NCBI RefSeq assembly: GCF_008329965.1 | Contig: NZ_CP036150.1 | Span: 2,170,001-2,234,000 of the forward strand | Length of the DNA stretch: 64,000 bases | Direction: 5' to 3' | From: Oceanispirochaeta crateris | GTDB taxonomy: Bacteria; Spirochaetota; Spirochaetia; DSM-2461 | Shown: positions 7,488-35,946 of the stretch, piece after piece | Position numbering within the stretch: the stretch's first letter is position 1 | Layout of the letters: each line of letters opens with the position of its first letter | Translations under genes and position numbers: made by a program | Notes under the pieces: model-generated | Database searches by the model: none | The model's input: the letters and a program-made list of their open reading frames with translations, nothing else | What the model was told of the DNA's origin: nothing

Positions 7488-7541
7488 TGCACAGCTTCTA
7501 GACCATGAGACTAAATGAGGCATCTCTTTTTAGAACTTTAT

Positions 7542-7636: not shown

Positions 7637-7966
7637 TTGAAACTAACAGCTGAAATAAAAAAAGAAATACAAAACGCACAGGAAAAACAACTCAAAAATA
7701 TACTCAAACTGTTATCTGGCTCCGATAGAAAGGCTCTTACAGCCTTTTTACAATCGGGTCAGGCTCCAGGGAGCAAAGCATTTAAGAATCTCAAACCAAA
7801 TGTGCAAAAGGGTATTCTCAAACTGAACATGACCAATATTGAAATTATGATTAAGAGGACACGGAATCCTATTACCAGATGGCGATATAAAATTGCAAGA
7901 TTCTCATACAAAAGTCTGTTAAAAGGCACGAAAAAAGAGCTGAAAAAAACAAAAAAAAAGAAGTAG
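7637..7966 (+). CDS. hypothetical lysine-rich small protein
   Basis: About 109 aa if translation starts at the TTG at 7637, which has GGAGAG eight bases upstream. The in-frame ATG at 7622 lacks a ribosome site and contains that same GGAGAG downstream of it. The protein is strongly basic: an amphipathic N-terminal half (LTAEIKKEIQNAQEKQLKNILKLLSGSDRKALTAFL) is followed by a tail ending in runs of K, T and E. No membrane segment, Cys motif or known domain is seen. The charge suggests nucleic-acid or ribosome contact, but this is inference. A weak hairpin (ACTGG/CCAGT, 7978-7994) plus CTTTTCT follows the stop. Confidence 0.6.
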   Translation: MKLTAEIKKEIQNAQEKQLKNILKLLSGSDRKALTAFLQSGQAPGSKAFKNLKPNVQKGILKLNMTNIEIMIKRTRNPITRWRYKIARFSYKSLLKGTKKELKKTKKKK

Positions 7967-8288
7967 TATCCATTTCTACTGGATTTTCACCAGTCTTTTC
8001 TCAAAAGTAAAGTAAAAGTCTTCTTTTACAAGTTGATTCCTCATAGCTTTCTTAGAAAGATACTGACTTTTTTTAAAAACAAGTTGTCGAAGACCAGTAT
8101 TATTTGCATAATTACTTTAACCATATAATTATTATTTACAGAATATCTGCCATTTATGACTATATTTGTAATATATAAGAACTTAGATTTGTATACAGGC
8201 TGTCCGGAGACTATACATTAGTCATTAAGTAGGCCAAGCTAATAAAAAAGTCTAGATAAATTATCTTAAATGAAAATACAGGAAGTAT
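7967..8288. other. intergenic region, no gene found
   Basis: 322 bp of AT-rich sequence before the REC/HD-GYP gene. Apart from the weak hairpin at 7978-7994 I see no ORF with a ribosome site, no tRNA-like fold and no repeat. It presumably holds the promoter and leader of the response-regulator gene. Confidence 0.5.
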
Positions 8289-9317: not shown

Positions 9318-9365
9318 AACACCTTATATTTTTACATCCGGAAACTATATGGTTCCCAAAGAAAT

Positions 9366-10607
9366 TCATAGTTGATTGTGATATGGAATACGGAGCTCCA
9401 GACAAAAACTCCTGGCATTATCTATAACCTGTATATCTCCATTAAAATAATTTTTAAGAATATAACGCACCGCTGACAATCCCATTCCTTTTCGATCATC
9501 TTTAGTTGTATAGCCTTCTGTGAAAATGAGAAGACTCTCCTGAGTGGACAATGGCGCGGCTCCATTGTCTGAGTAGAGAATCATGAGCATTTTACCCTTC
9601 TGAGTAACAGAAATTAAAACATCTTCTGCCGTCAAATGACCTTTTTGATTATCCCAAGAATTATCAATAAGGGCTAGGAATATCTGATTTAACAGGAAAG
9701 AATTCCCTGTTATGTACGATTCATCCGCTGCGTTTTGGGTAAAATTGATTTCAAGATTATATGATTCAAGAAAACTACTCATCCATTTTGAAAAGAGGAT
9801 CTCTTCTTTCCCGTAATGAGGAGTATCTACAATGAGTAACTTACTAAAGGCTGTCAGCCTTTTATCGGAGTGTTCTATAGCATCATTGATCGAACTGAAT
9901 GCGTTCTGCATTTCAGAACTAACACGGATCTTCTGAAGATCATTGAGTGTTCTCAATATTTTTTTATTATCTAAATATTTTTTAGATATTCGTATCTTTT
10001 TTGTAATTAGAAGTTCTTCAATCTTTCTTATATACTCTTTTGCTAAAAGAAAAGGCTGAAAAGTTTCTTGAAGTTCATTTCGGAACTTTTTAACATCTTT
10101 TAAGAGTCCCTGTCTCAATTTCACCATGCAGGTGTCATAACAAAAGAAACGATTTTGAATAAACATGTCCTGCAATTCAGATGTACCTTCAGAGCTTATT
10201 TTAGCAGCATGACTTCCCCTCGAATCTGGTACAACACTACTTTCCTGAAATATTTTCTGAATCCTAATAAGAACATCATCTTTCTCAAAAGGTTTGATCA
10301 GGTAATCAACGGCACCCAAGCTGAGCCCACGAATCACACTCTCTCTGTCAGATTTTGCCGTAAGAAAAACTACAGGAATCTCACTGGTTTCAGGTTTGCT
10401 TTTCAGAATTTTGCAAACCTCGAAGCCGTCCATCTCTGGCATCATAATATCCAGTAGAATCAAGTCAGGCTTTTTTATGCTGACCAGTTCAAGTGCTTTG
10501 GCTCCATTTGTCGCGAAATTCAGACTGTACTTATCACTTAGAATGTGTCCCAGAAGTTTCAGATTCTCAGGGGTATCATCAACAGCAAGAACATTTTTAT
10601 CTTCCAT
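9366..10607 (-). CDS. REC-HATPase protein (atypical histidine-kinase-like regulator)
   Basis: About 413 aa from the ATG at 10607, nine bases after AGGAGG; upstream in-frame codons lack a ribosome site. Residues about 4-120 are a receiver domain (AVDDTPEN, Asp53 in LLDIMMPEMDG, KPF). Residues about 130-290 are helical and coiled-coil-like. Residues about 300-410 form a GHKL ATPase (N-box LNQIFLALIDNSWD, G1 YSDNGAAPL, then F.EGYTTKDDRKGMGLSAVRYIL). I see no H-box (no HE.R or HDF pattern) in the helical part. It may therefore be a response regulator whose output binds ATP, or a phosphatase/anti-regulator rather than a normal kinase. It converges with the HD-GYP gene and diverges from the PAS kinase. 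Confidence 0.85.
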   Translation of the reverse strand: MEDKNVLAVDDTPENLKLLGHILSDKYSLNFATNGAKALELVSIKKPDLILLDIMMPEMDGFEVCKILKSKPETSEIPVVFLTAKSDRESVIRGLSLGAVDYLIKPFEKDDVLIRIQKIFQESSVVPDSRGSHAAKISSEGTSELQDMFIQNRFFCYDTCMVKLRQGLLKDVKKFRNELQETFQPFLLAKEYIRKIEELLITKKIRISKKYLDNKKILRTLNDLQKIRVSSEMQNAFSSINDAIEHSDKRLTAFSKLLIVDTPHYGKEEILFSKWMSSFLESYNLEINFTQNAADESYITGNSFLLNQIFLALIDNSWDNQKGHLTAEDVLISVTQKGKMLMILYSDNGAAPLSTQESLLIFTEGYTTKDDRKGMGLSAVRYILKNYFNGDIQVIDNARSFCLELRIPYHNQL

Positions 10608-10819
10608 TATCATCAGCCTCCTGTAGGAACATTGCCTTCCCAATTATACATAATAGGAGGGGGATGCATTTTATTCAATCCTGGATTCTCTTCCGATTTG
10701 GAAATGCAAATGAGGAAAATTGAGAAGATTGCAGGAACAGTGTGTAATGAACTATAATTCAATGAACCCAAAACCAATCCTCAAAGAAACGTTTTTTTCA
10801 TTGAAACAAGGGAATATTT

Positions 10820-13720: not shown

Positions 13721-13929
13721 CAATCTGGAGGATTTGATCGGTATTCTATTGTTAAAGGAACAATATACATATTCTGAATCATATAGAATGCAAGATTTCA
13801 CTAATAGTCTTTGATATGGTCTTGAAAACTTGTAGTTTCATAAATATTATTATGCTGAAACAATAGATACTTGGAATGAAAAATCATTACTGATTTTTTC
13901 AATCATTTTTATTAAAACTGGAACAATAA

Positions 13930-15540
13930 ATGAGTAAACTGAGACTTTCAAAAGAGCTATTTTCTATCAGGATGAAGCGGTTTAGTTTACTCATTATTAT
14001 TGCCTTGACCATATTTTCTGCTGTTTTCATATTATTTTGGAAACTACATGCAAATTCAGTCAAAGAAAAAGCCAAATATGAATCAATTATTGAAACACGA
14101 ACCCTCGCTGAGTCTACGCAAAATCAAATAGCCTTCCTTTCAAAAGAAGTCCTTCAACTTGCATCTCTCTCAAGCATAACAAAATGGGTTGAAAACAACG
14201 ATTCTCCAGAAATTCTTCATGATATACAAAGGGACTTGCTTTCTGCTTCCAAAGAAAAAAGGATATATAACCAGATTCGATTATTGGATGATCAAGGATT
14301 GGAAATTGTAAGAATAGATTTTGATAATGACAAGGGTGCTCAAGTAGTGCAGGAAGACTTATTGCAAGATAAGGGGTCCCGATATTATTTTGAAGAAACA
14401 CGCTCATTAATGGAAGGTCAGGTTTATGTTTCTCCACTGGATCTGAATATTGAAAATTCTATAATCGAAGAACCGCTAAATCCAGTAATGAGGTTCGGGA
14501 CACCCCTGTACAATTCAGAAGGTGATTTTTCAGGAATAGTGATTTTGAATTATATGGGTGGAAGGATTTTAAATTTAATAAGGAATAAAACATCTTCTTT
14601 GCCCGGAACATTCTCCCTAATCAATGATGATGGTTACTGGCTAATCAATCAAGTTCCGGAATACGAATGGGGGTTTTTATATCCTGATAGAAATAAGATG
14701 AATATGAGTATACTTCATCCGACATTGTGGCATCAGTTAGGAAATAAAATTTCTCAGCAGACAGAAACTGATAAAAAGATTATTACTTCAAAATGGATTG
14801 TTCCAGCCATAGACAATGTGGTAACGCGGTCCAACGATTGGCTGGCAGTTTATGAACTAGATTATTCGGAATTGGGTGTTTCTATAAGTGATGCATTTTA
14901 TCGATATTTTAAGTTTTTTATCGTTCTGTTTCCAATAATGCTACTCTTATCTGCCTTTATTAACCAAATTGTGAGTACGAATAAAAGCTATCAACTAAGA
15001 TTAAAAAGAATGGCTTTATATGACAGTCTGACAGGGTTGCCGAACAGGCACTTATTCTATGACCGGCTTGCGAATCTGGTGGCTGCTCAAGGGAGGACTC
15101 CCAATCACTTTGCCATCCTCTTCATGGACCTTGACGGGTTTAAAGCCGTCAATGACAAGTACGGACACGAAGCCGGTGATAAGGTGTTGAAAAGCGTATC
15201 AGAAAAATTGAGAATCCTGACCAGGAAATCAGATACCATATCAAGATTTGGCGGAGATGAATTTGTTCTACTCCTAGCAAATGTAAAAAACAATGAAAAT
15301 TGCGGGAAGATTGCCTCAGAAATTGTCAAATCAATTTCTGAAGCCATACTCATTGACGGAAATACAATAAACATAGGTTGCAGTATAGGCATCAAACTCG
15401 TTGAGGATGCAAAATTGAAATCTACAGACTCGTTGCTCGAAGAAGCAGATCAGGCTATGTACCAGGCCAAAAAGAATGGCAAGAACAGATATGAGTTTGC
15501 ATCCGAAGAAATCATTAAAAATGAAGAAAGCCCTTCTTAG
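13930..15540 (+). CDS. membrane diguanylate cyclase with dCache sensor
   Basis: 536 aa. Helix at about residues 17-37, periplasmic sensor to about 325, second helix (about 328-350), GGDEF domain. The sensor has the motif SRYYFEETRSLMEGQVYVSP followed by LDLNIEN..I.EPLNPVMRFGTP. The same motif occurs in the disrupted gene next door and in the hybrid kinase at 52190-56650. The catalytic site RFGGDEF (G441) and an I-site RKSD five residues earlier are intact, so it should make c-di-GMP with feedback inhibition. GGAACAATAA precedes the ATG. It converges tail to tail with the disrupted GGDEF-EAL gene, 8 bp apart. Confidence 0.92.
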   Translation: MSKLRLSKELFSIRMKRFSLLIIIALTIFSAVFILFWKLHANSVKEKAKYESIIETRTLAESTQNQIAFLSKEVLQLASLSSITKWVENNDSPEILHDIQRDLLSASKEKRIYNQIRLLDDQGLEIVRIDFDNDKGAQVVQEDLLQDKGSRYYFEETRSLMEGQVYVSPLDLNIENSIIEEPLNPVMRFGTPLYNSEGDFSGIVILNYMGGRILNLIRNKTSSLPGTFSLINDDGYWLINQVPEYEWGFLYPDRNKMNMSILHPTLWHQLGNKISQQTETDKKIITSKWIVPAIDNVVTRSNDWLAVYELDYSELGVSISDAFYRYFKFFIVLFPIMLLLSAFINQIVSTNKSYQLRLKRMALYDSLTGLPNRHLFYDRLANLVAAQGRTPNHFAILFMDLDGFKAVNDKYGHEAGDKVLKSVSEKLRILTRKSDTISRFGGDEFVLLLANVKNNENCGKIASEIVKSISEAILIDGNTINIGCSIGIKLVEDAKLKSTDSLLEEADQAMYQAKKNGKNRYEFASEEIIKNEESPS

Positions 15541-16021
15541 CTTCTGTGTCAGCCACTGGATGGAGTAGAATTATATTCTTTAATCAGCGCCAGAATGTCC
15601 TGGATACACTCTGGCTTGGAACAAAAATACCCCTGGTATTCCTCGCAGCCTAATTCTTTAATATAAGCCTTCTGGATTTCTGTCTCAATGCCTTCTACAA
15701 TGACCTTGATATTTAGTTCATGAGCCAGTTTTACTATCGCTTGCAATATGGAGCCATCGTCTGATTCAGGGTAATCTTTTATGAACAGACGATCAACTTT
15801 TAGTTTATCAGCATTCAATTTCTTTAAATAACCCAATGATGAATATCCAGTACCGAAATCATCAATTGCCACAGTGAATTTATTGTGATGCATTGTTTCT
15901 ATTATACGATTTGTGAAATCTAAATTTTCTGACAGTACGGTTTCTGTTATTTCAAAACAGATGATATTCAGCGGAAAACCATCATCATTAATGATTTTTA
16001 TCAGATCCTTTGACCTCTCCC

Positions 16022-16837
16022 CTATATTCGACCAGCAACAGGTTTAGTTTTCAGCTTTTTTAGCTTACTCTCAAATTCTATCGGTGTCATTCCTTTCAAT
16101 CTTTTTTGAGGTCTTTCTGTATTATATTCAGTCCACCAATTTTCAATTTTATCTCTAGCATCACTGATCGTTTCAAAATAATGGGAATTTAAGCATTCGT
16201 TTCTGAATGTTCCGTTGAAGCTTTCAATATAGCAATTATCAGTTGGTTTTCCTGGCCTCGAGAAACTGATCTTGATTCCTTTCTCATAACACCATTTATC
16301 AAGCTCTTTACTTCTGAATTCTGGTCCATTATCACATTGTAACGTTTCTGGATAACCATATCTTTCTCCAGCCCTTTCTAGAACCTCAGAAACATGTCGG
16401 CCGTTTATTGAATAACCAACATGAATAATTGGGGACTTATTTGTTGTTGGATCTATAACTGTTAATACCTTAAGTTTCTTCTGATTTGCAACAGAATCAC
16501 TTACAAAATCAATCGCCCAAAGTTTACCAGGTGTTTCTGGGATTACAGCAGGCTCTCTATTTTCAGACGATATCTTTTTCCTACGTTTCCTTCTCTTCAG
16601 TTGCAATCCCTGTTCGTTGTAGATCCTCTCAGTACGCTTATGATTGATGGGCATGCTATTCTGGCGAAGTTTCAAATGGATCATACCACAGCCATATTTT
16701 GAGTTCTTTTTAAGTATCTTATATATCTCTTTGATTATCTCACCATCATCATTTGGCTTCAAATCATAGAGATAAGTAGATCGTGGTATTTGAACTAAGC
16801 GGCAGGCTCTTCTTATTGATAACCCGAAGTATTTCAC
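16022..16837 (-). CDS. IS3-family transposase, orfB (DDE catalytic part)
   Basis: 271 aa as an independent ORF from a GTG. In vivo it is most likely made as an OrfAB fusion: the frame stays open upstream through VLRPGVKRDAVKHLVKYFGLS to the frameshift site. It has an HTH_21-like region (GCGMIHLKLRQ.....NHKRTERIYNEQGL) and an rve integrase core. Catalytic residues sit in WAIDFVSD (first Asp), LQCDNGPEF (second Asp) and CYIESFNGTFRNE (Glu). It ends in the WW.EYN.ERPQKRLKGMTPIEF motif typical of the family. It performs copy-out/paste-in transposition. The stop codon overlaps the terminal inverted repeat. Confidence 0.93.
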   Translation of the reverse strand: MKYFGLSIRRACRLVQIPRSTYLYDLKPNDDGEIIKEIYKILKKNSKYGCGMIHLKLRQNSMPINHKRTERIYNEQGLQLKRRKRRKKISSENREPAVIPETPGKLWAIDFVSDSVANQKKLKVLTVIDPTTNKSPIIHVGYSINGRHVSEVLERAGERYGYPETLQCDNGPEFRSKELDKWCYEKGIKISFSRPGKPTDNCYIESFNGTFRNECLNSHYFETISDARDKIENWWTEYNTERPQKRLKGMTPIEFESKLKKLKTKPVAGRI

Positions 16838-16860
16838 AAGATGCTTTACAGCGTCTCTTT

Positions 16861-17133
16861 TTACTCCGGGTCGCAGAACTTTTTTATGATTTCCTTTTGA
16901 GCCATATTATCAAGTGATAAATTGGCAACTAGTTTTTTTAGGTTTTCATTTTCTTGTTCTAGTTGTTTTAATCTAGCAATCTCTTTTGAAGACATATCTG
17001 CATATTTTCTCTTCCAAATGTAAAAAGTATTCTCGCTGATCCCGTATTCTCGGGCAACGTCACTAACCTTTTTTCCTAGTCTCTGTTCTCCCAGAATCTT
17101 TACGATCTGTTCTTCTGTAAATCTCTTTTTCAT
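16861..17133 (-). CDS. IS3-family transposase, orfA (HTH protein)
   Basis: 90 aa from the ATG at 17133 (MKKRFTEEQIVKIL), which has GGAGG five bases upstream; a further in-frame ATG at 17145 lies ahead of that ribosome site. A helix-turn-helix (VSDVAREYGISENTFYIWKRKYADM) is followed by a leucine-zipper-like coiled coil (IARLKQLEQENENLKKLVANLSLDNMAQKEII). OrfA binds the terminal repeats and, alone, usually restrains transposition. Near its end the in-frame heptamer A AAA AAG allows the shift into orfB. Confidence 0.92.
   Translation of the reverse strand: MKKRFTEEQIVKILGEQRLGKKVSDVAREYGISENTFYIWKRKYADMSSKEIARLKQLEQENENLKKLVANLSLDNMAQKEIIKKFCDPE
16879..16885 (-). promoter_or_regulatory. programmed -1 frameshift site (A AAA AAG)
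   Basis: On the minus strand orfA codons read ATA AAA AAG, giving the slippery heptamer A AAA AAG exactly in phase. A -1 slip continues with GTT CTG CGA into the open orfB frame, giving KKVLRPGVKRDAVKHL. This is the standard signal by which IS3 elements make the OrfAB transposase. Confidence 0.8.
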
Positions 17134-19916
17134 ATCAGCCTCCATTATATTTTTTGGCTGAAAACTAATCTAGGTTCTGGTACGATTTATTGGGGAGAGG
17201 TCACCTTAATAATTGTGAAATCTGTAAATTCCTGGGAAGACAAATTAACAGAAATCCGGAAATCATCATTGGTTATCTCAAGTAATTCTCGGCATTCCCG
17301 GACTACCCTGCTCAGAATATATTTACCAAGTTTTTTTATTTGGATGGGGTTTTCTTCCAGAATAGGCACAAATACAGAGGGAGGAACGGATCCAAGATTC
17401 TGATTATTCCACCTGACAAGGGCCTCCAGACCAATAATTTTATTGCTGATTGCATCATTCTGAGGCTGATAAACAACCGTAAACTCTTCCCTCTCGAAAG
17501 CAAAGTCTATTTCCTTTTTGATTCTAAAATATTGGCTGACTTCTTCATTTATATTCTGGTCAAATAATAAGTATTTGTTTCTTTTAATCCTTGTGATGGC
17601 TTCAAGAGCTATATTTGCCTTTTCCAAGAGATCATTTATTTCATCCCCGTGATCAGGACCCAAGGCAACCCCGGATATATAGTCGATATAACACCTTTCA
17701 TCACTAAACTGTAGAGAAGCTACTGCCCTGTCAATTCTATCCATTACATCTTCAATCTTATCTTCTCCAAGAACCAAGGCTATATATCAAATGTGATGAA
17801 GGAGCAATGATTGCACTTTTACTGCTCATTTTTTGCTTAAGTTGGTAGGATAAATTACTAACCAGCATTTTTTCTTCATCTTCTGTCATTCCGCTTCTTA
17901 AAACAGAATACTCCCGAATCCTTAGGGCAATCACTATTTTTCTATCAGAGTTCCCTTGCAAACTTCTCCTTAGCACCGGGATGATAGATTCTATTGACGA
18001 CAACGAAGCAGATTTATAAGGCATCGCTATTTTCTGGATCTCATCAATTACAGGAATATTTTTCGGCTCCGAATATATACCGATGTAATAGGCCACCTGC
18101 TTGGTACTGGTCGTAACCGTTCGTATTCTTAAATACTTTTGAATATGTACATTTTCTGCTGTTACATTCCACATATTTCCTTCCCAGATAATCTGATTAT
18201 TCATAGGTGAAGAAAAATCAGGAACTTGATCCCCCTGTAAGAAGGTTTTAGGCTTTTTACCCTTGATATCTTTGAGTTTATAACCATATATCGATTCAAA
18301 AATAGGATTACAATAAATGATCCTTTTCGCGCTGTTTGTGATCATCACACCATCATGAGAAAAATCGGAAATGATACCCGATGCTAAAAGCAGCAAATGT
18401 TCAGTTTCTTTCTGTGTTAAAAAAATTAGAATGATGAGAATAATGAAAAATTCAAAGAGAAGAATGAGGACTTTAAAATATTCGTTTCGGGCAAATAGAG
18501 AGCCGTAGATACTTACAATTTCTTTTCGATCATAACTGCTCAACAAAAGCCAGTTATCGCTGATTTCATCAAATACAATATTAAAGTTGCTATTGTTTAC
18601 CCTTAACTGCCTCTTAAAGTACTCTTTGCCATTTAGTGAAAAACGCTCTGATTCACTTGCTATGGTGAGGTCATACAAAGGATTGTCACCTTCTCTACCC
18701 ATCAAAAATGATGTTTCTAACAAAACTTCTTTTTGTATCTGATTCAAATTGAGAAAATTTGTTTTGTCCAGCAATCCAATATCAATATTTCCTGAATCCG
18801 CATTTTCGCTTTCCTTTAGAATATCTAATATCGTATAACCATCAAGGTTTATAACTAAATACCCTATTTTTTCATTTCCTTTATTGATAGGAACCCCAAA
18901 CCTTACTGTAGGAGTAAATGGCCTTTGAATCTGACCATTCTCCACATTCAGATCAAAATCAGAAATATAGAGATCATTTTGACCTATTTTCTGCAATCCC
19001 TTAAAATAGTACCGTTCACTTTTATCCTGAAGCTCTATATTTTCAAAGATATGATTATCTAGAATACTATGTTCAACTCGCAGGATTTCAAAGCCTGATT
19101 TAGAAATATATCTCAGCTGAAAAAACAGTCTTTTACTCTCCAATACTCTGAAGAACATATTTTTCATCTCTATATAATTCAGATCATTTGGATTCTGTAT
19201 GTAATTTGTAAACTCATCCGATTTTTTTATCAGATTCAAATCATCATAGGTATTTTGAAATAACTGGGAAAACTGTTATTCATGCAAGCTTATCAATTCT
19301 TCCTGACTTCGATTTACCTGGATCAGAATATCCTCTATTTTTTGCTGATAAATCCTACTCAATGAAAAGTACGTTATAAACAGAATAGGGAGTCCAAAAT
19401 ATATGTATCTTAATAATATTATTTTGAATGCCCGTTTGTTGTATTCAAATAAAACCATAATTTATCTTCTATATCCTTTTTATATTATGGATTAATCAAG
19501 AAGTTTCACTGATTCAATACCAAAACACGGGAACCGTTTCTCATCCAATAGATATCCATACGATATAATGTTCACGCATATGCAAAAAAGAAGGATTTGG
19601 TAAATAATTTTTATAGATTTACAGTAAAAAATACTTAATTGTCATTCAAATAAAGATCGAGGATTCTTAGTCAAAAGTCAATATCCGCTATAGAGATAAC
19701 AAGATAGATCCTTTTAATAGAAGGAGATTGGAGAGATATCAGGAGTTGTCCGGGACTTTCTATATTCTGAGGGGAAGTGAATATCAACTCTCGAGATGTT
19801 GGAGATCTCTGGATCATAAACTAGCTAGAAAACCCGACATTATTCGTAAATACATCCAGAAGAAAAATATCAGAATAAGAAGCTTAATGTGGCAGAGATT
19901 ATATATAGATTCTGAG

Positions 19917-26284: not shown

Positions 26285-28915
26285 CTAAGAAATAAAATCC
26301 AGGGAATCTCCCACTCTAATTGAAATTATATCTTCGAATAGAATCTGTGATTTTTTGAGCTTAAAATTGATTTCAATTTCATTTTTTCTTATGGTACGAA
26401 CAGAACTATTCTTTGGGAGACCGAAAGACTTCAATTCAAGATTTCCACCTAGAATAACGAATGAGGATTTTTCATTCTCAATTGTAAAAGATCCCCATGC
26501 TGTGTTAAAGCTCCAAAAAAAGGAAGAAGGACCATCAAATATAGGTTTAAAACCAATATGCTTAATTCGACCATCGAAAGTAAAACCGGAAAAAGTCAGT
26601 AAGAGTGAATAACTAGCCATGGACCTTGCGTAATTACTTCCGCACTCCATTTCATTCCATGGGTTTCTCCTGAATCCATCATATCTGTCACGAACACTTT
26701 TTACGACTTTCAACCCCTCCTCGATCAATCCTCTGCGAATCATCAAATCAGCCGCAGCGTATTCAAATCCATGCATGGTTTCCTGGGAGTATGGCACAGG
26801 GATAGTCGGACGTTCCTTATTCTCAGGCCAGGAACAAATAACCAATCCTGATTCATCATTAAGACAGAACAAGCGGCATGGATTGTAGTGTTCTCTCATG
26901 TTTTCACGGAAATTGTATTTCATAAGAGATCGAAGAGCCTTTTGAGTCTGAGATATCTCAAAGATATCCCCCAACCCATAAATATCAGAATGCCATTGGC
27001 CCAATAACTGATCTATAGAAACTCCTTCTGCAATCTGGTACTTCAGTTCTTTGTGTTCTTCACTCCAGTAGATATCATAAATTGTACCGTCATTGTTATC
27101 AAAATTGAATAATCCTTTATCAACAAAGGGTTCCAGCAATTTTTTATTCTTCAAATCAATTTTCTGGATAAAATACTCGCCGTTAAAAAGATCTCTATTT
27201 AAAATCCGGCATCCTTTTTCTAAAATCTCTTCATACTCTTTTGCGGAATCCAGATCATCCATTGCCCTAGCCATCTCAGAGCAGGCTTTTAATGCCCCTA
27301 AATACATACCACTTAACCAGGCATTAGGACCGAACAATTCCATATCCAAAGTATGGTGCTGCATTCCAGTTAGTATTCCGGTTTTTCCAGGATCCCACTG
27401 GTCAAGATTTTCTGATGCCCATGCAAATTCAAGTGCTTTTTTGACTTTCGGCCACAATTTTTTTAACCATGAGAAATCACCGCAAATTTTCCATTCACGA
27501 TAAGTCTTCATAATGGTAGCAAATTGACCATCCACAGCTGGTCTAAAATGCCAGCGAGGAGAGCCGATAGGGAGCATAAGCCTGAAAGTAAGACTACCAT
27601 CATCAGCCCAGTTATACTCATATTCAGCTTGTCTTACAGACCGGGAAAGTTTAGGAAATAAAAATGGAAGTACCTGAGCATATCCCCAAACATGGGAACA
27701 TGTGCCTTCACATGATCCTTCATTTTCACCAGAACCTTCCCATCCGTAAAATGTACCATCCTCAAGACGCCAAACCGTAGGGCTTTTCAGTATAGAAACA
27801 TTTGATGTTACAGCATCCAATACGGATTCAGGCAGGGATGAAGCAAAGAGAGCATTCCTAAAAGCTACAGTACTTCTATATAACCTATTCCAATTAAGAA
27901 GAGAATACTCCGCTGAATCTGTTGAATTACTCCAAAGAACAGCATAGTAATTAAGCCAACTTTTTCCCAACCAGTATTTTTCTTCTTCCGTATAGGGGGT
28001 TGTCCTCCCTGACTTCATTCGCCCCCAAGTGTTTTTATTGACTGGATGGCTCCAGGAAATAGTGTAGCGAATAGTTTTACTTTCACCTGCTGCGAGTTTA
28101 ATCCTGGATGAAAGTAAAGCATTGTCTCTGATATTTAAATCTTCTGGTGCATATGATCTCTTCTTGAAAGGACCAAAACTAGTCATATCCTTCCAATAGA
28201 CTTCTAAAGCATCAAACCATTCTCCTCGATAAAGATATTCCTGAAATGATACATCTTCTGAATCAGTAGCAATGCAGAGATCACCCGAAGAAATATCGTC
28301 TTTATTTTGATCCAAAGAATCTAGCATTATTTTTGAAATACCAGATTTTTTAGAAAAGGTATTTCTCGTTTTTCCCTTATATGGATTACCCAGGATTCCA
28401 TTTAAATAATAATAAAGAGTCTTATCTTGAGTATTTGTAATAGTAAAAGAGAAAAATGCTGCAGGAATACTGCTATCATCTTCCTCATGAGGAATTAAGG
28501 GATTGAACGCTTCCATCACGACTTTTCCTGGAAATTTCATATCTGAGAAACTCAACTCAGCAATAGGAAAAGTTCCTTTGAAAGTATTGGATTCAAAATG
28601 TGGTAAGCCTGCAAGAGTTTCTCTGCGAGGTCCAAATCCAAAACCTTCTAAAGTCTTTTCTGTTCCGAGAGGCCCGGTGAAGGGTGGATTCAAATCACCA
28701 TTTAAAACTCTGGCATCCAGCACCCTGGTCTCATCTTCCACTTTAATAGAAAAATGGGAAAATTCATTGTACTGCCCCTTTGCAGGTCTGTTAAATATCT
28801 CCCAGTCCTGTAGATGGCCATTACCTGCTAATCCAATACAACCACTACCTATTCCACCTAGAGGAAAAGAAATGGATGTCTGATGTTCATTTGTATATTC
28901 AAAATTCTTTCTCAT
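26285..28915 (-). CDS. GH116-family glycoside hydrolase (non-lysosomal glucosylceramidase-like)
   Basis: 876 aa, typical length. The N-terminal beta-domain opens with SFPLGGIGSGCIGLAGNGHLQDWEIFNRP, the hallmark of the family. The (alpha/alpha)6 catalytic part carries EGSCEGTCSHVWGYAQVLPFLFPKLSR and the acid/base region QHHTLDMELFGPNAWLSGMYLGALKA. It also carries QETMHGFEYAAADLMIRRGL and RNPWNEMECGSNYARSMASYSLLL. The family hydrolyses beta-linked glucosides or xylosides with retention. No signal peptide is seen, so it should act in the cytosol. It is the last gene of the ABC-transporter/sulfatase operon, with AAAGGAAC before the ATG. The operon suggests a sulfated or otherwise modified glycoside as substrate. 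Confidence 0.9.
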   Translation of the reverse strand: MRKNFEYTNEHQTSISFPLGGIGSGCIGLAGNGHLQDWEIFNRPAKGQYNEFSHFSIKVEDETRVLDARVLNGDLNPPFTGPLGTEKTLEGFGFGPRRETLAGLPHFESNTFKGTFPIAELSFSDMKFPGKVVMEAFNPLIPHEEDDSSIPAAFFSFTITNTQDKTLYYYLNGILGNPYKGKTRNTFSKKSGISKIMLDSLDQNKDDISSGDLCIATDSEDVSFQEYLYRGEWFDALEVYWKDMTSFGPFKKRSYAPEDLNIRDNALLSSRIKLAAGESKTIRYTISWSHPVNKNTWGRMKSGRTTPYTEEEKYWLGKSWLNYYAVLWSNSTDSAEYSLLNWNRLYRSTVAFRNALFASSLPESVLDAVTSNVSILKSPTVWRLEDGTFYGWEGSGENEGSCEGTCSHVWGYAQVLPFLFPKLSRSVRQAEYEYNWADDGSLTFRLMLPIGSPRWHFRPAVDGQFATIMKTYREWKICGDFSWLKKLWPKVKKALEFAWASENLDQWDPGKTGILTGMQHHTLDMELFGPNAWLSGMYLGALKACSEMARAMDDLDSAKEYEEILEKGCRILNRDLFNGEYFIQKIDLKNKKLLEPFVDKGLFNFDNNDGTIYDIYWSEEHKELKYQIAEGVSIDQLLGQWHSDIYGLGDIFEISQTQKALRSLMKYNFRENMREHYNPCRLFCLNDESGLVICSWPENKERPTIPVPYSQETMHGFEYAAADLMIRRGLIEEGLKVVKSVRDRYDGFRRNPWNEMECGSNYARSMASYSLLLTFSGFTFDGRIKHIGFKPIFDGPSSFFWSFNTAWGSFTIENEKSSFVILGGNLELKSFGLPKNSSVRTIRKNEIEINFKLKKSQILFEDIISIRVGDSLDFIS

Positions 28916-28963
28916 CGATTGTTCCTTTAAAAGTGAGGTTACATTTTTTACTTGAATTGGTGA

Positions 28964-30514
28964 TTAATGCACCCCAAAAGCAAATAACTCCCTTCTTGTT
29001 TTGGGATAATCCTGTTTTATGATGCACTCAAATAGCCTATCTTTTAATTCGGTTTTTATATCTTGATACTGAGGTTCTGCTATAAGATTATGTTGTTCAT
29101 CAGGATCATCAATTAGATTGAATAATTGTTCACCGTTTTTGTCTGCATAATAAGTATACCGATATTTTTCTGTTCTTATAGTTCGCGCCCAATCCCCCAC
29201 ATCCATAGACCAGATTGGATTATAACTTTCAATATAGGCTTCTTTTCTCCAGCTTGGTTCTGCATCAGCTCGGCACAAATTCAAAATTGACTTTCCAGGA
29301 AAAATTGGAATATCTTCTTTTTTGATATTTAGATAATTACCCATTTCTGGCATCAGCTCAGGTAAGGAATCTGACAAATCCAAAATTGTTGGACAAAAAT
29401 CTTCTGGTTGAATGAACTCGGTACAGATACGACCTTTCGGCAGACCAGGTCCGGAGATTATAAAGGGAGATCTTATACAGGCATCATAGTGTCTTTCTTC
29501 TTTTCCATAAAAGCCATGATCTCCCAATAACTCTCCATGATCTGAAATGAATAAGATATATGTATCATCATAAACATCATTTTCTTTTAAGGTATCCAAA
29601 ATGATTCCCAGTTGATGATCTAAATGAACCAGGTCTGCAAAATAACAATGTCGTGCATACATATCATTATTTACATATTTCCCAAGCTTAAGTTTTGAAA
29701 AATACTCTGGTGCATGAGGGTCTATTTTCCACTCAGAAGGAACTGGTCGTGGAATGTTTTCAACATTAACATCCTTCATGAAATCAGCAGGAGGAGTAAA
29801 AGGACTATGGGGTTGTACATAACTGATTTGTGCAAAAAATGGTGTATTGTTTTTACATTCCTTAATATAATTGACGGCATACATCGTTATCCATTCTGTC
29901 TGGGAGAGTTCCTTTGGGAACGGTAAAGTAGTAGAATTTTCCATATTTTCTGGAAAATTGTCTGTTTCCCATTTCGCTTTACTTCGAAGCTTATTAATCC
30001 TTTTTTTTAGATCCTCTTTTCCTTCTCCATATTCTTCAAACTCGGGGATATGAGAAGCCCATATAGTCGTAAGAACAGAATCAAAATGCTCCGGATGATT
30101 TTCTTTTACCCAGTCAAGCCATTCACCACCTCGCCCATCTTCAGTAATATGAGTCTCATCAAATCCATATTGTTTGTAATCAGGCCAAAATCCTTCAAAA
30201 TGTGGTCTTAAATGTACTTTCCCAAAAGCACCAGTTCTATACCCATTCTTTTTCAAAGAATGCATAAAAGTAGGTAATTGTGGATTTAAAGAGTATCCAT
30301 TTTCCAAAACCCCATGACCTCTTGTTGTTAAGCCGGTAGCCATAGTGGCTCGAGTCGGACAACACACAGGATTACTAGAAAAATAATTTGAGCACATAGT
30401 TCCATTATCAACTAAAGATTTTATATTCGGTAATTCACAAATTCCGTCAAATGCAGCATCCAACCATTTTTGTGAAAGCTGATCGACCATAAATAGTACA
30501 ATGTTTTTTTTCAT
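28964..30514 (-). CDS. sulfatase (formylglycine-dependent, type I)
   Basis: 516 aa. The start MKKNIVLFMVDQLSQKW gives the first metal Asp. The maturation motif C-x-P-x-R is C51-C-P-T-R in NPVCCPTRATMATGL; Cys51 would be converted to formylglycine. Further landmarks are GYRTGAFGKVHL, ISYVQPHSPFTPP and the metal-binding FISDHGELLGDHGFYGKEE. The C-terminal subdomain includes RTIRTEKYRYTYY...GEQLFNLIDDPDE. There is no signal peptide, unlike most bacterial sulfatases, so desulfation would happen in the cytosol after uptake. No maturase (anSME or FGE) is in the window. The ribosome site AAAGGA overlaps the permease stop 9 bp upstream. Confidence 0.93.
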   Translation of the reverse strand: MKKNIVLFMVDQLSQKWLDAAFDGICELPNIKSLVDNGTMCSNYFSSNPVCCPTRATMATGLTTRGHGVLENGYSLNPQLPTFMHSLKKNGYRTGAFGKVHLRPHFEGFWPDYKQYGFDETHITEDGRGGEWLDWVKENHPEHFDSVLTTIWASHIPEFEEYGEGKEDLKKRINKLRSKAKWETDNFPENMENSTTLPFPKELSQTEWITMYAVNYIKECKNNTPFFAQISYVQPHSPFTPPADFMKDVNVENIPRPVPSEWKIDPHAPEYFSKLKLGKYVNNDMYARHCYFADLVHLDHQLGIILDTLKENDVYDDTYILFISDHGELLGDHGFYGKEERHYDACIRSPFIISGPGLPKGRICTEFIQPEDFCPTILDLSDSLPELMPEMGNYLNIKKEDIPIFPGKSILNLCRADAEPSWRKEAYIESYNPIWSMDVGDWARTIRTEKYRYTYYADKNGEQLFNLIDDPDEQHNLIAEPQYQDIKTELKDRLFECIIKQDYPKTRRELFAFGVH

Positions 30515-30523
30515 AATAATCTA

Positions 30524-31366
30524 TTATCCTTTGATTCCACCGGACTCTAACCCCATTGCAATATACTTTTGACCAAATCCGTAAAAGGCCAAGGGTGGAA
30601 TAATAGAAACAATGACACCAGCTAAAATAATAGACATGTTCCCGTTATCCATCATTCCTTTTAACTGAAAAAGGCCTAATGGCAATGTCATATTCTCTAC
30701 TGAATTAATGAGGATAAGAGGTCTAAAAAAATCATTCCACACCAACAGCAAATGCATAACCGCTGTTACTAAAAGCGCTGATTTCATCATTGGTAAAATA
30801 ATATAAAAATATGTCTTAAACCTGTTTAATCCATCAATGGCGGCAGCTTCATCATATTGCATAGGAATTGTAAGAGAATGTTGTCTCATTAAAAAAACAC
30901 CGAGAGGATATACAAGACCCGGCAATATAAGTGCAGACAAAGTATCCAGAAGTTGTAATTCTCTCATGACAATGAAAAGAGGAATAATTGTAACTTGTGC
31001 TGGAATCATTAACCCGGCTAATATGACAATAAAGACAATTTCTGATCCTTTAAATTTTATCCTTGTTATTGCAAATGCAGCCATACTTGAGATTAAAAGC
31101 TGCCCAGAAACCGCGAAACCAGCAACAATGGAACTATTTATTATATTTCTTAAAAAGGGTAACTCTGTAAAAACGCTAGCATAGTTTCCCCATAAAAATG
31201 GTGCTTTCGGAAAGAAACTGGGAGGAAGCTTAAAGGATTCCTTTGCTGGACGTAAAGATGTTGAGAACATCCATAACAAGGGTAATATAATCATAATGAC
31301 TACAAAAAATAGAGCTATTGATACTGCTATATCCGTAAAAGTATATCTTTTATTATTACCGATCAT
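30524..31366 (-). CDS. ABC sugar transporter permease (MalG type)
   Basis: 280 aa with six predicted membrane segments. The family EAA loop reads QYDEAAAIDGLNRFKTYFYIILPMMKSAL, the contact for the ATPase. It begins in the last codons of the other permease (11-bp overlap), which implies translational coupling. Together they form the membrane channel of a CUT1-type carbohydrate importer. No ATPase gene is present in the operon, as in many systems that use a shared MsmK/MalK-like ATPase encoded elsewhere. Confidence 0.94.
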   Translation of the reverse strand: MIGNNKRYTFTDIAVSIALFFVVIMIILPLLWMFSTSLRPAKESFKLPPSFFPKAPFLWGNYASVFTELPFLRNIINSSIVAGFAVSGQLLISSMAAFAITRIKFKGSEIVFIVILAGLMIPAQVTIIPLFIVMRELQLLDTLSALILPGLVYPLGVFLMRQHSLTIPMQYDEAAAIDGLNRFKTYFYIILPMMKSALLVTAVMHLLLVWNDFFRPLILINSVENMTLPLGLFQLKGMMDNGNMSIILAGVIVSIIPPLAFYGFGQKYIAMGLESGGIKG

Positions 31367-32234
31367 AATTAACCCATTTATTGGAAAATTTATTTTGTGA
31401 AACTGAAATAATCAAAATTACCAAAAACAACAGAACTGCTAAGGCAGAGGAATAGCCTAAATCAAACCTTCGAAAAGCTACTTCATAAATAAACAAATTA
31501 ACTGTTCGGGATGCATCTCCAGGCCCTCCATTAGTGAGGAAAAAAGGCTCATCAAAGATTTGCAAAGTGTTGATAAATAATACTGTTACCACAAATAGGA
31601 TTGTAGGAGTTAGCATAGGAAGCGTAATTCTAAAAAAACGAGCTATTGGTCCTGCACCATCAATATATGATGCTTCATAAATATCATTGGGGATACCATT
31701 AAGCCCAATTAAGAAATATAAAAAAGAGGTACCTACAAATTTCCAAACACTGAAAATCAATATCGAAGTGAATACATATTGGGAAGAGGTTAACCAAGGA
31801 ATGGCCTCAAGGTTGAAAATATTTAATAGCCAATTCATGATTCCAAAATCTCTATTAAATATGTATTTCCAGGCAATTGCCATTGACGCTGTCGTTATAG
31901 CAACTGGTGTATAAAGAATAAAACGATAAAAACCCTGCATTTTTATTGATACTGATTGAACGAATAAAGCTAGTAGTAAACCAATGATAGAATGTAATAA
32001 TACTAAAGATATCGCCAATTTAAAGGTTGTTAAGAAAATACCCATAACACGAGTATCCTGAAAGGCACTGATATAATTCTTTAGTCCAACAAAAGAGGGA
32101 GGACTTAAAAGATCATAGTTAGAGAAGCTAAAAACAAAAGTAGCAATAATTGGCAATATGAGAAAGATAGAAAACACAAGAGCCATTGGTAATAGAAATA
32201 AAAATGCTTGTTGAGAGTCGTTCGACCCAACCAT
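31356..32234 (-). CDS. ABC sugar transporter permease (MalF type)
   Basis: 292 aa, six membrane segments, AGGAGGAG before the ATG. The EAA loop reads DIYEASYIDGAGPIARFFRITLPMLTPTILF. The region LTNGGPGDASRTVNLFIYEVAFRRFDLGYSSALAVLLFL is characteristic of CUT1 MalF/UgpA-type permeases. It is the inner-membrane partner of the MalG-type protein and lies 89 bp after the binding-protein gene, separated from it by a perfect hairpin. Confidence 0.94.
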   Translation of the reverse strand: MVGSNDSQQAFLFLLPMALVFSIFLILPIIATFVFSFSNYDLLSPPSFVGLKNYISAFQDTRVMGIFLTTFKLAISLVLLHSIIGLLLALFVQSVSIKMQGFYRFILYTPVAITTASMAIAWKYIFNRDFGIMNWLLNIFNLEAIPWLTSSQYVFTSILIFSVWKFVGTSFLYFLIGLNGIPNDIYEASYIDGAGPIARFFRITLPMLTPTILFVVTVLFINTLQIFDEPFFLTNGGPGDASRTVNLFIYEVAFRRFDLGYSSALAVLLFLVILIISVSQNKFSNKWVNYDR

Positions 32235-32282
32235 TAAACTCTCCTCCTTTTTATCATTTTTTAAATGTAAGATAAGAAACCA

Positions 32283-32304
32283 GCCGTACAGAGCCCTGTA
32301 CGGC
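32283..32304 (-). terminator. hairpin between binding-protein and permease genes
   Basis: Perfect 9-bp stem GCCGTACAG / CTGTACGGC with a 4-nt loop. On the minus strand it follows the binding-protein stop by about 20 bp and is followed by TGGTTTCTT. Such hairpins commonly let only part of the transcripts reach the permeases and protect the binding-protein mRNA, giving more binding protein than permease. Confidence 0.6.
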
Positions 32305-32323
32305 CTTTAGAAATACAGAAGAT

Positions 32324-33592
32324 TTATTTCTTTAATACATTGTTTATTTCGTTGTGCATACCAAGGACACAATCTTCAACTGCAATCTCATCTGCCATTA
32401 AAAGACTAAAATAACGACTAAAAATCTGAGCAATTTCGGGATATGCTTCTGGTGCTTGTACCGGTGATGCAATATCAGCACTTTCTCTATAAAGCATTGT
32501 GTTCTCTGGTGCATATTGAGGTAACATTTCATCCATTACAGAAATTCGTGTAGGGATCGCATCTAATTTAAGAGCACTCTTTTGCGCATATTCGCTGCTT
32601 AAGAATTTTGCAAGTTTATATGCTTCTTCAGGATGTTTTGACTGTGAGCTTACAACCCAGGCACCTGACCCGAAAATAACTTTCTGTGCCCCAAAATTTG
32701 GTAAATACTGTATATCAAAATTCATATCTGCTTCTTTCCAGGAGGGAAGAGGCCATCTACCTAAGAGGACCATAGCAACCTGACCATTTGTAAACATAGC
32801 TATAGGGTTTGCTGTATCTGCAGTAGGCTGAGGAGCATACTTATATTTGTAAACTAAATCATATAGCATTTGAAAGGCTGCGAGAGCTTCTGGTGTATCT
32901 AGAGCAGAAGCAGTCATATCTTCATTAAGAAATGATGCACCATAATTATACAGCCATGCACTTGTTACAAAATAAAAGTCAGGTATAGAAAAACCAAAGA
33001 CTTTTTGACCATCAACTTCTCTTGTTAGTGCTTTTGCATACTTCAGAAATTCTGTTTCATCCCAGTCTGAAGAAGGTACGTCAAGGCCGACTTCTTCAAG
33101 CATGTCAAGATTAAAATGTGTGACAACATTATTCCATCCAAAGACAGTTCCATATACATGTCCGTTTAGTTCAAAGGCAGACTGTAACTTAGGATGAAGA
33201 TCTTTATAATCATCTCTAAAAGTAGGATCATTAGCTATATATTCATCCAAAGGAATCGCCATATTTTTAGCCGCTAAATACTGAGCACCTTCAATGGCAA
33301 CATACATAACATCAGGAGAATCTCCTCCAGCGATCAATGTTCTGATTTTTACAAAATAATCTGACCAGTCATTGGCAGCAACATTATGAATAGCTTCAAT
33401 TGTTAAATCTGGGTTTTCTACTTCAAACTCTGCTTTTAACGCCCCCATTTCATTTCCCAGATAGTTTCCCATTACAGCAATACTTAATTCAACTGGCTCT
33501 CCAGCTTGTTTTTCTTCAGCCTCTTGATTACCCGAAGCAAAAAGCAAGCTTCCCATTATGCACATAAATAGAAATGTCAATCCTTTTTTCAT
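32324..33592 (-). CDS. ABC sugar transporter substrate-binding protein
   Basis: 422 aa. The signal peptide MKKGLTFLFMCIMGSLLFAS ends before GNQEAEEKQAGE; a Cys lipobox is absent, a form common in spirochaetal binding proteins. The mature part follows the SBP_bac_1 pattern: GALKAEFEVENPDLTIEAIH near the start, LIAGGDSPDVMYVAI, FGWNNVVTHFNLDMLEEVGLDVP, MFTNGQVAMVLLGRW and FGSGAWVVSSQSKHPEEAYKLAKFL. It binds an oligosaccharide or glycoside outside the membrane and delivers it to the two permeases. First gene of the operon: its promoter carries a perfect LacI-type dyad. AAAGGAG precedes the ATG. Confidence 0.94.
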   Translation of the reverse strand: MKKGLTFLFMCIMGSLLFASGNQEAEEKQAGEPVELSIAVMGNYLGNEMGALKAEFEVENPDLTIEAIHNVAANDWSDYFVKIRTLIAGGDSPDVMYVAIEGAQYLAAKNMAIPLDEYIANDPTFRDDYKDLHPKLQSAFELNGHVYGTVFGWNNVVTHFNLDMLEEVGLDVPSSDWDETEFLKYAKALTREVDGQKVFGFSIPDFYFVTSAWLYNYGASFLNEDMTASALDTPEALAAFQMLYDLVYKYKYAPQPTADTANPIAMFTNGQVAMVLLGRWPLPSWKEADMNFDIQYLPNFGAQKVIFGSGAWVVSSQSKHPEEAYKLAKFLSSEYAQKSALKLDAIPTRISVMDEMLPQYAPENTMLYRESADIASPVQAPEAYPEIAQIFSRYFSLLMADEIAVEDCVLGMHNEINNVLKK

Positions 33593-33636
33593 TTACTACT
33601 CCTTTTAATTTGTTCAACTCTCTTTGCAGAGTTACC

Positions 33637-33674
33637 AATTACCGTAAACGTTACCGGTTGCGTTTACGGTAATT
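33637..33674. promoter_or_regulatory. LacI-family operator
   Basis: Perfect 14-bp arms AATTACCGTAAACG (33637-33650) and CGTTTACGGTAATT (33661-33674), spacer 10 bp. The CGTAAACG core resembles LacI/CcpA-family half sites. Its right end covers the -10 of the binding-protein promoter, and the divergent LacI-type gene starts 120 bp away. Confidence 0.85.
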
Positions 33675-33700
33675 CTAGAATACAATATTTAGATCGTCAA
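33672..33700 (-). promoter_or_regulatory. promoter of the sugar operon
   Basis: Minus strand: TTGACG (33700-33695), 17-nt spacer, TAGAAT (33677-33672). Each hexamer matches five of six consensus positions. The operator overlaps the last three bases of the -10 and the start site. Confidence 0.75.
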
Positions 33701-33794
33701 GGAATTATTAATATTTGCTAAAGACATTTTTAGATGCAGATTTATATTCTCAGATTTGATGTGTTAAGATAATTCTAAATTGGAGCATACAGTA

Positions 33795-34766
33795 ATGATC
33801 ACGATAAAAGAGCTTGCCAAGTTATGTGAATGTTCAATAGCAACTGTAAATCGAGCCTTAAACGACAAACCTGATGTCAACAAAGTAACGAAAATGCGTG
33901 TAAAGAAACTTGCCGAAGAACTGGGATACAGGCCCCATTTGATGGCCCGTAGTCTTGCCACAGGCCGAACAAATATCATTGGATTGATTGTACTTGATAT
34001 TCAGAATCCTTTTTTTGGTCAGCTTATCAATATTCTCAATAAAGAATTACTTTATAAGGGGTACTCTCTTCATCTTGGAATTATGGATGGCACTCCGGCG
34101 TCAGAATACCATGCATTAGAACAAATGGCCGGTATGAAAGTCGATGGTATTATCCACTTCCCCATGAATATAGGAGCTAAATACAAACAATTCCTCAATC
34201 GCCTACACATACCTCTTGTCCATTTATGTAACTTTCTGGACGATGATTTTCCCTTTGTGGGTGTGGAAGAAAAAAAGGCTACGATTGAAGCTGTAGAAAC
34301 AATAAAATCAAAAGGATATGAAAAATTAATCTATGTAAGTCCCCCTCTACGCTACAGAGGAAGCCGAAATCTATACACAATTGAAGAACGACTTAAGGGC
34401 GTTGAAGAATCATCATCAGGGCTTAAAACTGAATACATTACCGAGAGAGATTTTATTCAGTCGACTTATGAAATTATTAAAGAACAGCCAAAAAGGACCT
34501 GCGTTTTGTGTTCCAATGATATTTTTGCATTGGATATTATGACCGATTTTAGAAACCGTGGTTTGATCTCTCCTAAGAATTACGGTTTAATGGGATTTGA
34601 TAATATCTCCTTTCTGAGACATATTACCCCTCGACTATCAACTATCGCTTATCCTGTAGAATCTCTCGCCATGAAATCCATGGAAGTGCTTCTAGATTTA
34701 ATCGAAGAGAAACCATCCCGCCGAATTATGATGAAAGCTCATCTGATTGATGGTGAAACCATATAA
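33795..34766 (+). CDS. LacI-family transcriptional regulator of the sugar operon
   Basis: 323 aa from the ATG at 33795, nine bases after GGAG; an in-frame TTG at 33780 precedes that site. HTH: ITIKELAKLCECSIATVNRALNDKPDVNKVTKMRVKKLAEELGYRPHLMARSLATGRT. Residues about 60-320 are a periplasmic-binding-protein-like sensor (IIGLIVLDIQNPFFGQLINIL, VLCSNDIFALDIM, YGLMGFDNISFLRHITPRLSTIAYP). It is divergent from the binding-protein operon and a perfect dyad lies between them, so it is very probably the local repressor. The inducer is likely the imported glycoside or a breakdown product. Confidence 0.93.
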   Translation: MITIKELAKLCECSIATVNRALNDKPDVNKVTKMRVKKLAEELGYRPHLMARSLATGRTNIIGLIVLDIQNPFFGQLINILNKELLYKGYSLHLGIMDGTPASEYHALEQMAGMKVDGIIHFPMNIGAKYKQFLNRLHIPLVHLCNFLDDDFPFVGVEEKKATIEAVETIKSKGYEKLIYVSPPLRYRGSRNLYTIEERLKGVEESSSGLKTEYITERDFIQSTYEIIKEQPKRTCVLCSNDIFALDIMTDFRNRGLISPKNYGLMGFDNISFLRHITPRLSTIAYPVESLAMKSMEVLLDLIEEKPSRRIMMKAHLIDGETI

Positions 34767-34927: not shown

Positions 34928-35410
34928 TTGAACACGATCATCATATATGTTATCACCGTGGTAGCCATCTTGATCTCTTTAATAAAAGATAGTAACAAAA
35001 CTGTGAAAGCTCTCAAGAAAGCCATTATGTCTTTAGAAAAGATTCTTCCCCAGTTTCTAACGGTTATATTTTTGGTAGCCCTGGCCATTGCCTTTCTGGA
35101 TCAGGAAAAGATTACTCAGCTATTAGGTGACAATTCAGGTATTTGGGGCATTTTAGCGGCCAGTATTGTCGGCAGCATTACCCTCATACCCGGCTTTGTC
35201 GCATTCCCTGCCGCTGCAGAGTTACTTGAAAATGGTGCTGCCTTTGCTCCCATTGCAGCATTTGTTTCCTCATTGATGATGGTTGGAATTGTCACTCTCC
35301 CCCTGGAAATATCCTATTTTGGAAAAAAAATATCCATCATAAGAAATTCTACAGCCTTTGTCTTTTCCATTATTGCAGCCTTTTTTGTTTCTTGGATGGT
35401 TTCCATATGA
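34928..35410 (+). CDS. half-size permease (DUF318/ArsP-like), subunit 1
   Basis: 160 aa from a TTG with AGGAG about ten bases upstream. Four or five hydrophobic helices. The central motif SITLIPGFVAFPAAAELLENGAA corresponds to the conserved G-x-P-F-P block of the UPF0718/ArsP permease family. A single ArsP-type protein has two such blocks. Here the second is encoded by the next gene, which starts at an ATGA overlap, so the two should be made together and join as a heterodimer in the membrane. Substrate unknown: arsenic, other oxyanions or organics are possible by family analogy. Confidence 0.75.
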   Translation: MNTIIIYVITVVAILISLIKDSNKTVKALKKAIMSLEKILPQFLTVIFLVALAIAFLDQEKITQLLGDNSGIWGILAASIVGSITLIPGFVAFPAAAELLENGAAFAPIAAFVSSLMMVGIVTLPLEISYFGKKISIIRNSTAFVFSIIAAFFVSWMVSI

Positions 35411-35946
35411 GAGGAGTTTTAAAACGATATCGATTTACGATTATCATGTTCATTCTGTTCCTCTTGATCATTATGCTTTTTCCTGGACACTCCGAAGCTG
35501 TCAAAGGATCTTTTTCGAACCAGATTCTTACCATGATTTCAATCATTCCGCCGGTCTTTATCCTTTTAGGGTTATTCGATGTTTGGGTTCCCCGGGAAAC
35601 AATCATAAACATGCTTGGTGAACAATCGGGTATTAGAGGAGCTCTTTTAGCATTTTTCTTGGGATCGGCTGCGGCAGGACCACTTTATGGAGCCTTTCCT
35701 ATAGCTTCGGTGATGATGAAAAAAGGCGCTAGCATATATAATGTGTTTATCTTCATAGGGGCATGGTCAACCACAAAGATTCCGATGTTTTTATTTGAAT
35801 CCAATGCTCTGGGTTATAGATTCTCCGTATCTCGATTGTTGATAAGCATCATAGGCATCGTTTCTATCTCTTTTATTTTAAACAGAAGCACCAATACAAA
35901 AGAAAAACAGATTTTATACGAAAGATTTCAAACGTCCAATTCTTAG
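35407..35946 (+). CDS. half-size permease (DUF318/ArsP-like), subunit 2
   Basis: 179 aa from the ATG at 35407 (MRGVLKRYRFTIIMF), overlapping the previous stop as ATGA. Four or five helices; the block GSAAAGPLYGAFPIASVMMKKGAS parallels the SITLIPGFVAFPAAAELLENGAA block of subunit 1. The helix before it (LFDVWVPRETIINMLGEQSGIRG) parallels LDQEKITQLLGDNSGIWG of the first subunit. The two genes therefore look like the separated halves of one internally repeated permease. No soluble partner or metalloregulator gene lies next to them. Confidence 0.75.
   Translation: MRGVLKRYRFTIIMFILFLLIIMLFPGHSEAVKGSFSNQILTMISIIPPVFILLGLFDVWVPRETIINMLGEQSGIRGALLAFFLGSAAAGPLYGAFPIASVMMKKGASIYNVFIFIGAWSTTKIPMFLFESNALGYRFSVSRLLISIIGIVSISFILNRSTNTKEKQILYERFQTSNS

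Follow-up and report, generated by a model that had tools for sequence, protein, structure and literature searches.

The 64,000-nucleotide stretch of Oceanispirochaeta crateris DNA analysed here (the window, contig NZ_CP036150.1) carries at positions 26285-34766 six intact genes, each assigned to its family above the Pfam cut-off. They encode an extracellular solute-binding protein (SBP), two CUT1 ATP-binding cassette (ABC) permeases, a sulfatase, a GH116 glycoside hydrolase and a divergent LacI-type regulator. This is the gene set named in an initial annotation of the stretch, and the intact CxPxR motif that it attributed to the sulfatase is likewise present.

26285..28915, minus strand: GH116 glycoside hydrolase, 876 amino acids, without visible signal peptide; in the group that contains the enzyme ExoMA2
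28964..30514, minus strand: S1-type sulfatase, 516 amino acids, without visible signal peptide; motif C51-C-P-T-R55
30524..31366, minus strand: CUT1 ABC permease 2 (P2), MalG/UgpE-like (Pfam, above cut-off)
31356..32234, minus strand: CUT1 ABC permease 1 (P1), MalF/UgpA-like (Pfam, above cut-off)
32324..33592, minus strand: SBP with N-terminal signal sequence (Pfam and hydropathy)
33780..34766, plus strand: LacI-family regulator, divergent (Pfam, above cut-off)

From the SBP gene onward the intergenic gaps measure 89, -11 (an overlap), 9 and 48 bp, and SBP, P1, P2, sulfatase and GH116 are therefore likely to share a single transcript. The binding protein and the two MalFG/UgpAE-type permeases identify the importer as CUT1. 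No ATPase gene lies within the unit, as is usual for CUT1 units.

Control region

33672..33700, minus strand: predicted sigma-70 promoter TTGACG-17-TAGAAT, reading into the SBP gene (10/12 consensus positions; among the five best of the region)
33637..33674, no strand: 38-bp palindrome, predicted LacI operator (19-nt arms, 17/19 complementary, outer 14 perfect)
32282..32305, minus strand: 10-bp stem-loop between the SBP and permease genes (consensus scan; number of such matches not above chance)

The palindrome overlaps the promoter -10 and the probable transcription start, an arrangement which makes LacI repressor control of the unit plausible and supports the regulated locus envisaged by the initial annotation. 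No second copy was found in a search of the window, and palindromes of 36-38 bp occupy the same gap in two related loci described below (L110 and L040, 38 bp in the latter). Promoter-like and terminator-like sites are no commoner than in shuffled sequence, so it is the placement of the site with respect to the palindrome that supports the promoter call. The stem-loop is possibly an attenuator or an mRNA-stabilising element.

The GH116 enzyme

Membership in GH116 is supported by two Pfam domains above cut-off, Glyco_hydr_116N (164.6 bits) and DUF608 (129.9 bits). The best sequence match in the PDB is ExoMA2 (8ic6, 426 bits), the TxGH116 beta-glucosidase scoring about 48 bits, and the predicted structure (mean predicted local distance difference test, pLDDT, 89.8) aligns with a template modelling score of 0.85 to ExoMA2 and 0.66 to TxGH116. 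By both sequence and fold, ExoMA2 is the closest of the GH116 enzymes with a solved structure. According to PMC10509167, ExoMA2 is an exo-beta-D-arabinofuranosidase of Microbacterium arabinogalactanolyticum, in which Glu431 and Asp557 are catalytic and the Arg483/His446 pair is the key difference from beta-glucosidases (His507/Asp452 in TxGH116).

Residue numbers of that paper were matched to the structure chain with an offset of 4, at which all four letters fit. The window residues E393 (nucleophile), D524 (acid/base), H408 and R445 align with ExoMA2 E431, D557, H446 and R483, and the enzyme has the His/Arg pair of ExoMA2, not the Asp/His pair of TxGH116. Both the catalytic and the His/Arg pair are invariant in 58 aligned sequences, and residues named in the same source for recognition of the D-arabinofuranose O2 are kept. 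Judged by its sequence, the enzyme belongs with the ExoMA2-type group (subfamily 4 of PMC10509167), within which it is grouped with proteins nearer to one another than to ExoMA2. Action on beta-glucosides or xylosides, expected at first from the family, is not borne out by this nearest relative and by the His/Arg pair, and a GH116 gene should not be read as a beta-glucosidase by default.

Sulfatase and cell location

Family S1 membership of the sulfatase is supported by PF00884 (145.8 bits) and by conserved C51, R55, D11 and D325. The predicted metal ligands are D11/Q12 and D325/H326, with K99/H101/H236 as further residues. Choline, aryl and carbohydrate sulfatases are the best PDB sequence matches, ahead of phosphonate hydrolases, and a near named structure is BT1918 (S1_46, 23% identity). 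The predicted structure, of lower confidence (pLDDT 74.9), is matched about equally by carbohydrate/choline sulfatases and phosphonate monoester hydrolases, and the protein falls below every curated NCBIfam sulfatase cut-off.

Close relatives are rare. Among the 148 genomes searched, they occur at 50% identity in G092 alone and at 33% in G028; in 393 genomes drawn evenly across the phylum only the window's own genome passed the threshold, and a scan of viral contigs gave no relative. The G092 relative has no visible signal sequence and adjoins an oligopeptide-type ABC importer. G092 (loci L115-L118 and L137) is a spirochaete metagenome-assembled genome (MAG) in which 111 sulfatase candidates were counted along with several GH116 genes of the ExoMA2 type, and it holds the closest relative found of the window sulfatase.

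Signal peptides were judged from N-terminal hydropathy (best 13-residue mean) and the longest uncharged run. The SBP reaches a mean of 2.4 with an uncharged run of 18 residues, the sulfatase 0.70 with a run of 6, and GH116 1.37 with a 13-residue glycine-rich run, which corresponds in the alignment to a motif conserved in the mature enzyme. Neither enzyme is hydrophobic at its N-terminus like the SBP, which upholds the earlier claim that both lack a signal peptide. In the sulfatase, the predicted ligand Asp11 already lies in the first strand and is kept in the relatives aligned, leaving no apparent space for a cleaved leader. Maturation would be possible in the host because its genome encodes an anSME above its cut-off (403.8 bits) and an FGE-family protein (281.6 bits).

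Eight stretches of the host genome match PF00884, two of which resemble halves of one gene, and no signal sequence was visible in any of its sulfatase genes whose start was read. One sulfatase gene is apparently split (L104, C1:138000-156000, positions 8153-9861) into neighbouring open frames of 290 and 377 amino acids, possibly a frameshift or a pseudogene.

Two further loci of the same genome resemble the window unit in their SBP-P1-P2-sulfatase order and in sulfatases without visible signal peptide. The first (L100, C1:3562000-3581000, positions 5833-10338) has GH95, LacI-like and ROK-like genes upstream, GH95 lying a few genes from the permease-sulfatase unit; in the second (L102, C1:347000-366000, positions 2511-11170) a GH38 alpha-mannosidase-type gene, an SBP gene, two permease genes and two sulfatase genes follow one another. 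Their glycosidases differ from that of the window, and their sulfatases are 22-27% identical to its sulfatase. Most descriptions of bacterial glycan desulfation place it in the periplasm or extracellularly. The repeated CUT1-sulfatase pairs make import before desulfation seem a habit of this organism, one that would keep the released sugar private.

Distribution and history of the module

Homologues with flanking DNA were collected from 15 of the 148 genomes, the window's own included, and a wider genome scan contributed 51 loci. The order LacI-SBP-P1-P2-GH116 is found again in L040 (a Spirochaetia MAG), L041 (a Treponema MAG), L056 (Paenibacillus montanisoli) and L111. Variants of it occur in L107, which has an extra GH116, and L110, which has a distantly related CUT1 transporter. 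The first four modules share gene order and homologous parts with the window unit and differ from it in having no sulfatase between P2 and GH116; none of the six loci holds a sulfatase inside the unit. Across the 148 genomes, the wider scan and the 393-genome phylum sample, the order with a sulfatase between P2 and GH116 was not found beyond this locus. The same-order search suggested at the outset has therefore succeeded in spirochaetes for the sulfatase-free order, and the five-gene order with the sulfatase was met only here. Sulfatases do adjoin GH116 genes in L065, L087, L113 and L114, at 22-24% identity to the window's and outside this module. Because the sulfatase-free order recurs in other genomes, the unit is not a chance assembly.

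Trees were built from 7-8 module members each, and clades were tested with pairwise identities already known. The window is grouped with L040 by the GH116 tree (100/99) and the LacI tree (99/99), whereas the SBP and permease trees place L040 with L107 and reject the window+L040 grouping (p 0.002 and 0.008). Given this conflict, the transporter block seems not to share the history of the LacI and GH116 genes at the two ends, and the unit looks mosaic. Third codon positions have a G+C content of 0.24-0.34 within the unit, against 0.42-0.47 in the flanking genes tested, and this GH116 is absent from all five same-genus genomes searched. Taken with the tree conflict, these observations make the unit look horizontally assembled, with the sulfatase as an addition.

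In L111 (G080:C18:20000-39900, positions 4056-18461) the genes run LacI-SBP-P1-P2-GH116-GH116-GH172, the second GH116 and the GH172 being additional to the window's set. A further ExoMA2-like GH116, 49% identical to ExoMA2, lies close to the module, and L111, which belongs to a relative of the host, is a promising candidate for a D-arabinofuranoside locus. Window-like and ExoMA2-like GH116 kinds stand side by side in both L107 and L111. PMC10509167 describes GH172 as comprising exo-alpha-D-arabinofuranosidases and an alpha-D-fructofuranosidase.

Another locus of the host genome (L136, C1:2685000-2703000, positions 6713-10841) could encode a pentulose-phosphate route: a class II aldolase, 58% identical to the one beside the L040 module, is accompanied there by a PfkB kinase, a LacI-like gene and an MFS sugar transporter. 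A 5-deoxyribose/methylthioribose route, suggested by MtnA-like and class II aldolase genes flanking L040, was rejected: the host genome has no MtnA match, and the Paenibacillus MtnA homologue stands beside an apparent MtnK kinase gene (read by eye), which is ordinary methionine salvage. About 160 bp past the LacI gene, on the same strand, two overlapping genes (34928-35946, plus strand) each encode half of an ArsP_1-type permease (PF03773). An arsenosugar-sulfate substrate suggested by them was dropped, as no such half-permeases were seen beside the related modules listed.

Proposed mechanism and alternatives

The interpretation that we favour, with an even chance of being correct, is a horizontally assembled variant of an uptake operon of arabinofuranoside type, to which a cytosolic sulfatase was added that would remove sulfate before cleavage by GH116. 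LacI would keep the promoter blocked by binding the overlapping palindrome, and would be released by an inducer, which is probably either the substrate itself or something formed as it is degraded. The SBP and the two permeases would import an intact sulfated beta-D-arabinofuranose-type furanoside, with an ATPase from another part of the genome as the power source. Once in the cytosol, the compound would lose its sulfate to the sulfatase, whose Cys51 would have been converted to formylglycine, and GH116 would then cut the beta-furanosidic bond so exposed, retaining the configuration. The sulfatase itself would have been inserted between the transporter and hydrolase genes of a wider sulfatase-free module. 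Gene content and order, the absence of visible signal peptides, the GH116 family, the tree conflict and the promoter/operator layout, on which this scheme builds, can be read from the DNA.

As described in PMC10509167, ExoMA2 hydrogen-bonds every hydroxyl of the terminal sugar. If the sulfate sits on that sugar, desulfation would therefore have to come first, which would explain why the unit includes a sulfatase; with the sulfate on the aglycone instead, either order would be possible. We infer the substrate, the order of the two reactions and the repression, the substrate being the weak link. Import, cytosolic desulfation and hydrolysis, as outlined by the initial annotation, are retained in their architecture (no visible signal peptides, maturation genes, palindrome) and are not supported in the glucoside or xyloside substrate. 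The sulfoglycolipid (sulfoquinovosyl) head group, also put forward there, fits badly and was rejected on chemical grounds, since the sulfur there is bound directly to carbon as a sulfonate (C-S), a bond that sulfatases leave intact.

Several observations weigh against a D-arabinofuranoside, or against the scheme more widely. GH116 is only 35% identical to ExoMA2, and the four invariant residues mark the ExoMA2-type group and do not settle the sugar; to our knowledge a single member of that group has been assayed. The host genome has no match to GH172 (PF11175) or to GH183 endo-D-arabinanase (PF13810), and the described D-arabinan breakdown route is therefore not present here. A literature search for a natural sulfated D-arabinofuranoside found no report, and the modelled fold of the sulfatase would also suit an enzyme that hydrolyses phosphonates or phosphodiesters. 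The transporter/enzyme exchange may have gone in either direction, and the trees have only 7-8 rows. A literature search on cytosolic sulfatase/importer systems gave nothing useful.

The low identity to ExoMA2, the closer-knit set to which the enzyme belongs, the side-by-side occurrence of both GH116 kinds and the missing GH172 and GH183 would also suit another sulfated furanoside (a beta-D-ribofuranoside or beta-D-fructofuranoside, for example) in a GH116 group that has diversified beyond D-arabinofuranose; the architecture would be the same, and GH172, the neighbour in L111, does include an alpha-D-fructofuranosidase. The retained O2-recognition residues speak against such a substrate, and we know of no alternative specificity in the ExoMA2-type group; we regard it as rather unlikely, though a serious candidate. 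The architecture would suit equally well a beta-glucoside or xyloside that enters the cell with its sulfate, loses it there and is then split by a GH116 glucosidase, and characterised GH116 enzymes are mostly beta-glucosidases, as stated in PMC10509167; however, the same source reports that ExoMA2 does not cleave p-nitrophenyl-beta-glucoside, and with the window enzyme far from the beta-glucosidases and carrying His/Arg against Asp452/His507 of TxGH116, this version is very improbable.

The sulfatase homologue might instead hydrolyse phosphonate or phosphate esters, or act on an unrelated sulfate ester, sharing only operon and control with GH116. Its fold matches choline sulfatases and phosphonate monoester hydrolases as well as carbohydrate sulfatases, its predicted D11/Q12/D325/H326 ligand set is common to the former two, it reaches no curated NCBIfam cut-off and it is a lone addition to the module. 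The gene nevertheless lies 9 bp after a sugar permease gene and 48 bp before the GH116 gene, the best PDB sequence matches are sulfatases, and the two other permease-sulfatase units, with an adjacent GH38 and an upstream GH95, suggest sugar sulfates; this reading as a whole appears improbable.

Should GH116 have the same specificity as ExoMA2, its nearest relative of known activity, the locus would point to D-arabinofuranosides that carry sulfate. It may then, as a tentative proposition, be the first sign of a pathway for natural compounds of this kind, imported and desulfated in the cell before cleavage, and its two enzymes, which could be purified, would be tools for finding such compounds.

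Comparison with known systems

TxGH116 shares with the window enzyme its fold, its GH116 membership and a catalytic pair placed identically in space, and differs in its low similarity and in the Asp/His that stands where the window enzyme has His/Arg. The D-arabinan cluster of M. arabinogalactanolyticum, as presented in PMC10509167, includes GH172 and exported GH183 endo-enzymes, neither of which occurs in the genome studied here, and no sulfatase is mentioned in the available part of that paper, whereas the window unit has one. Like the window unit, that cluster combines an ABC importer with a GH116 enzyme without signal sequence, and intracellular cleavage by ExoMA2 has been proposed by its authors (PMC10509167).

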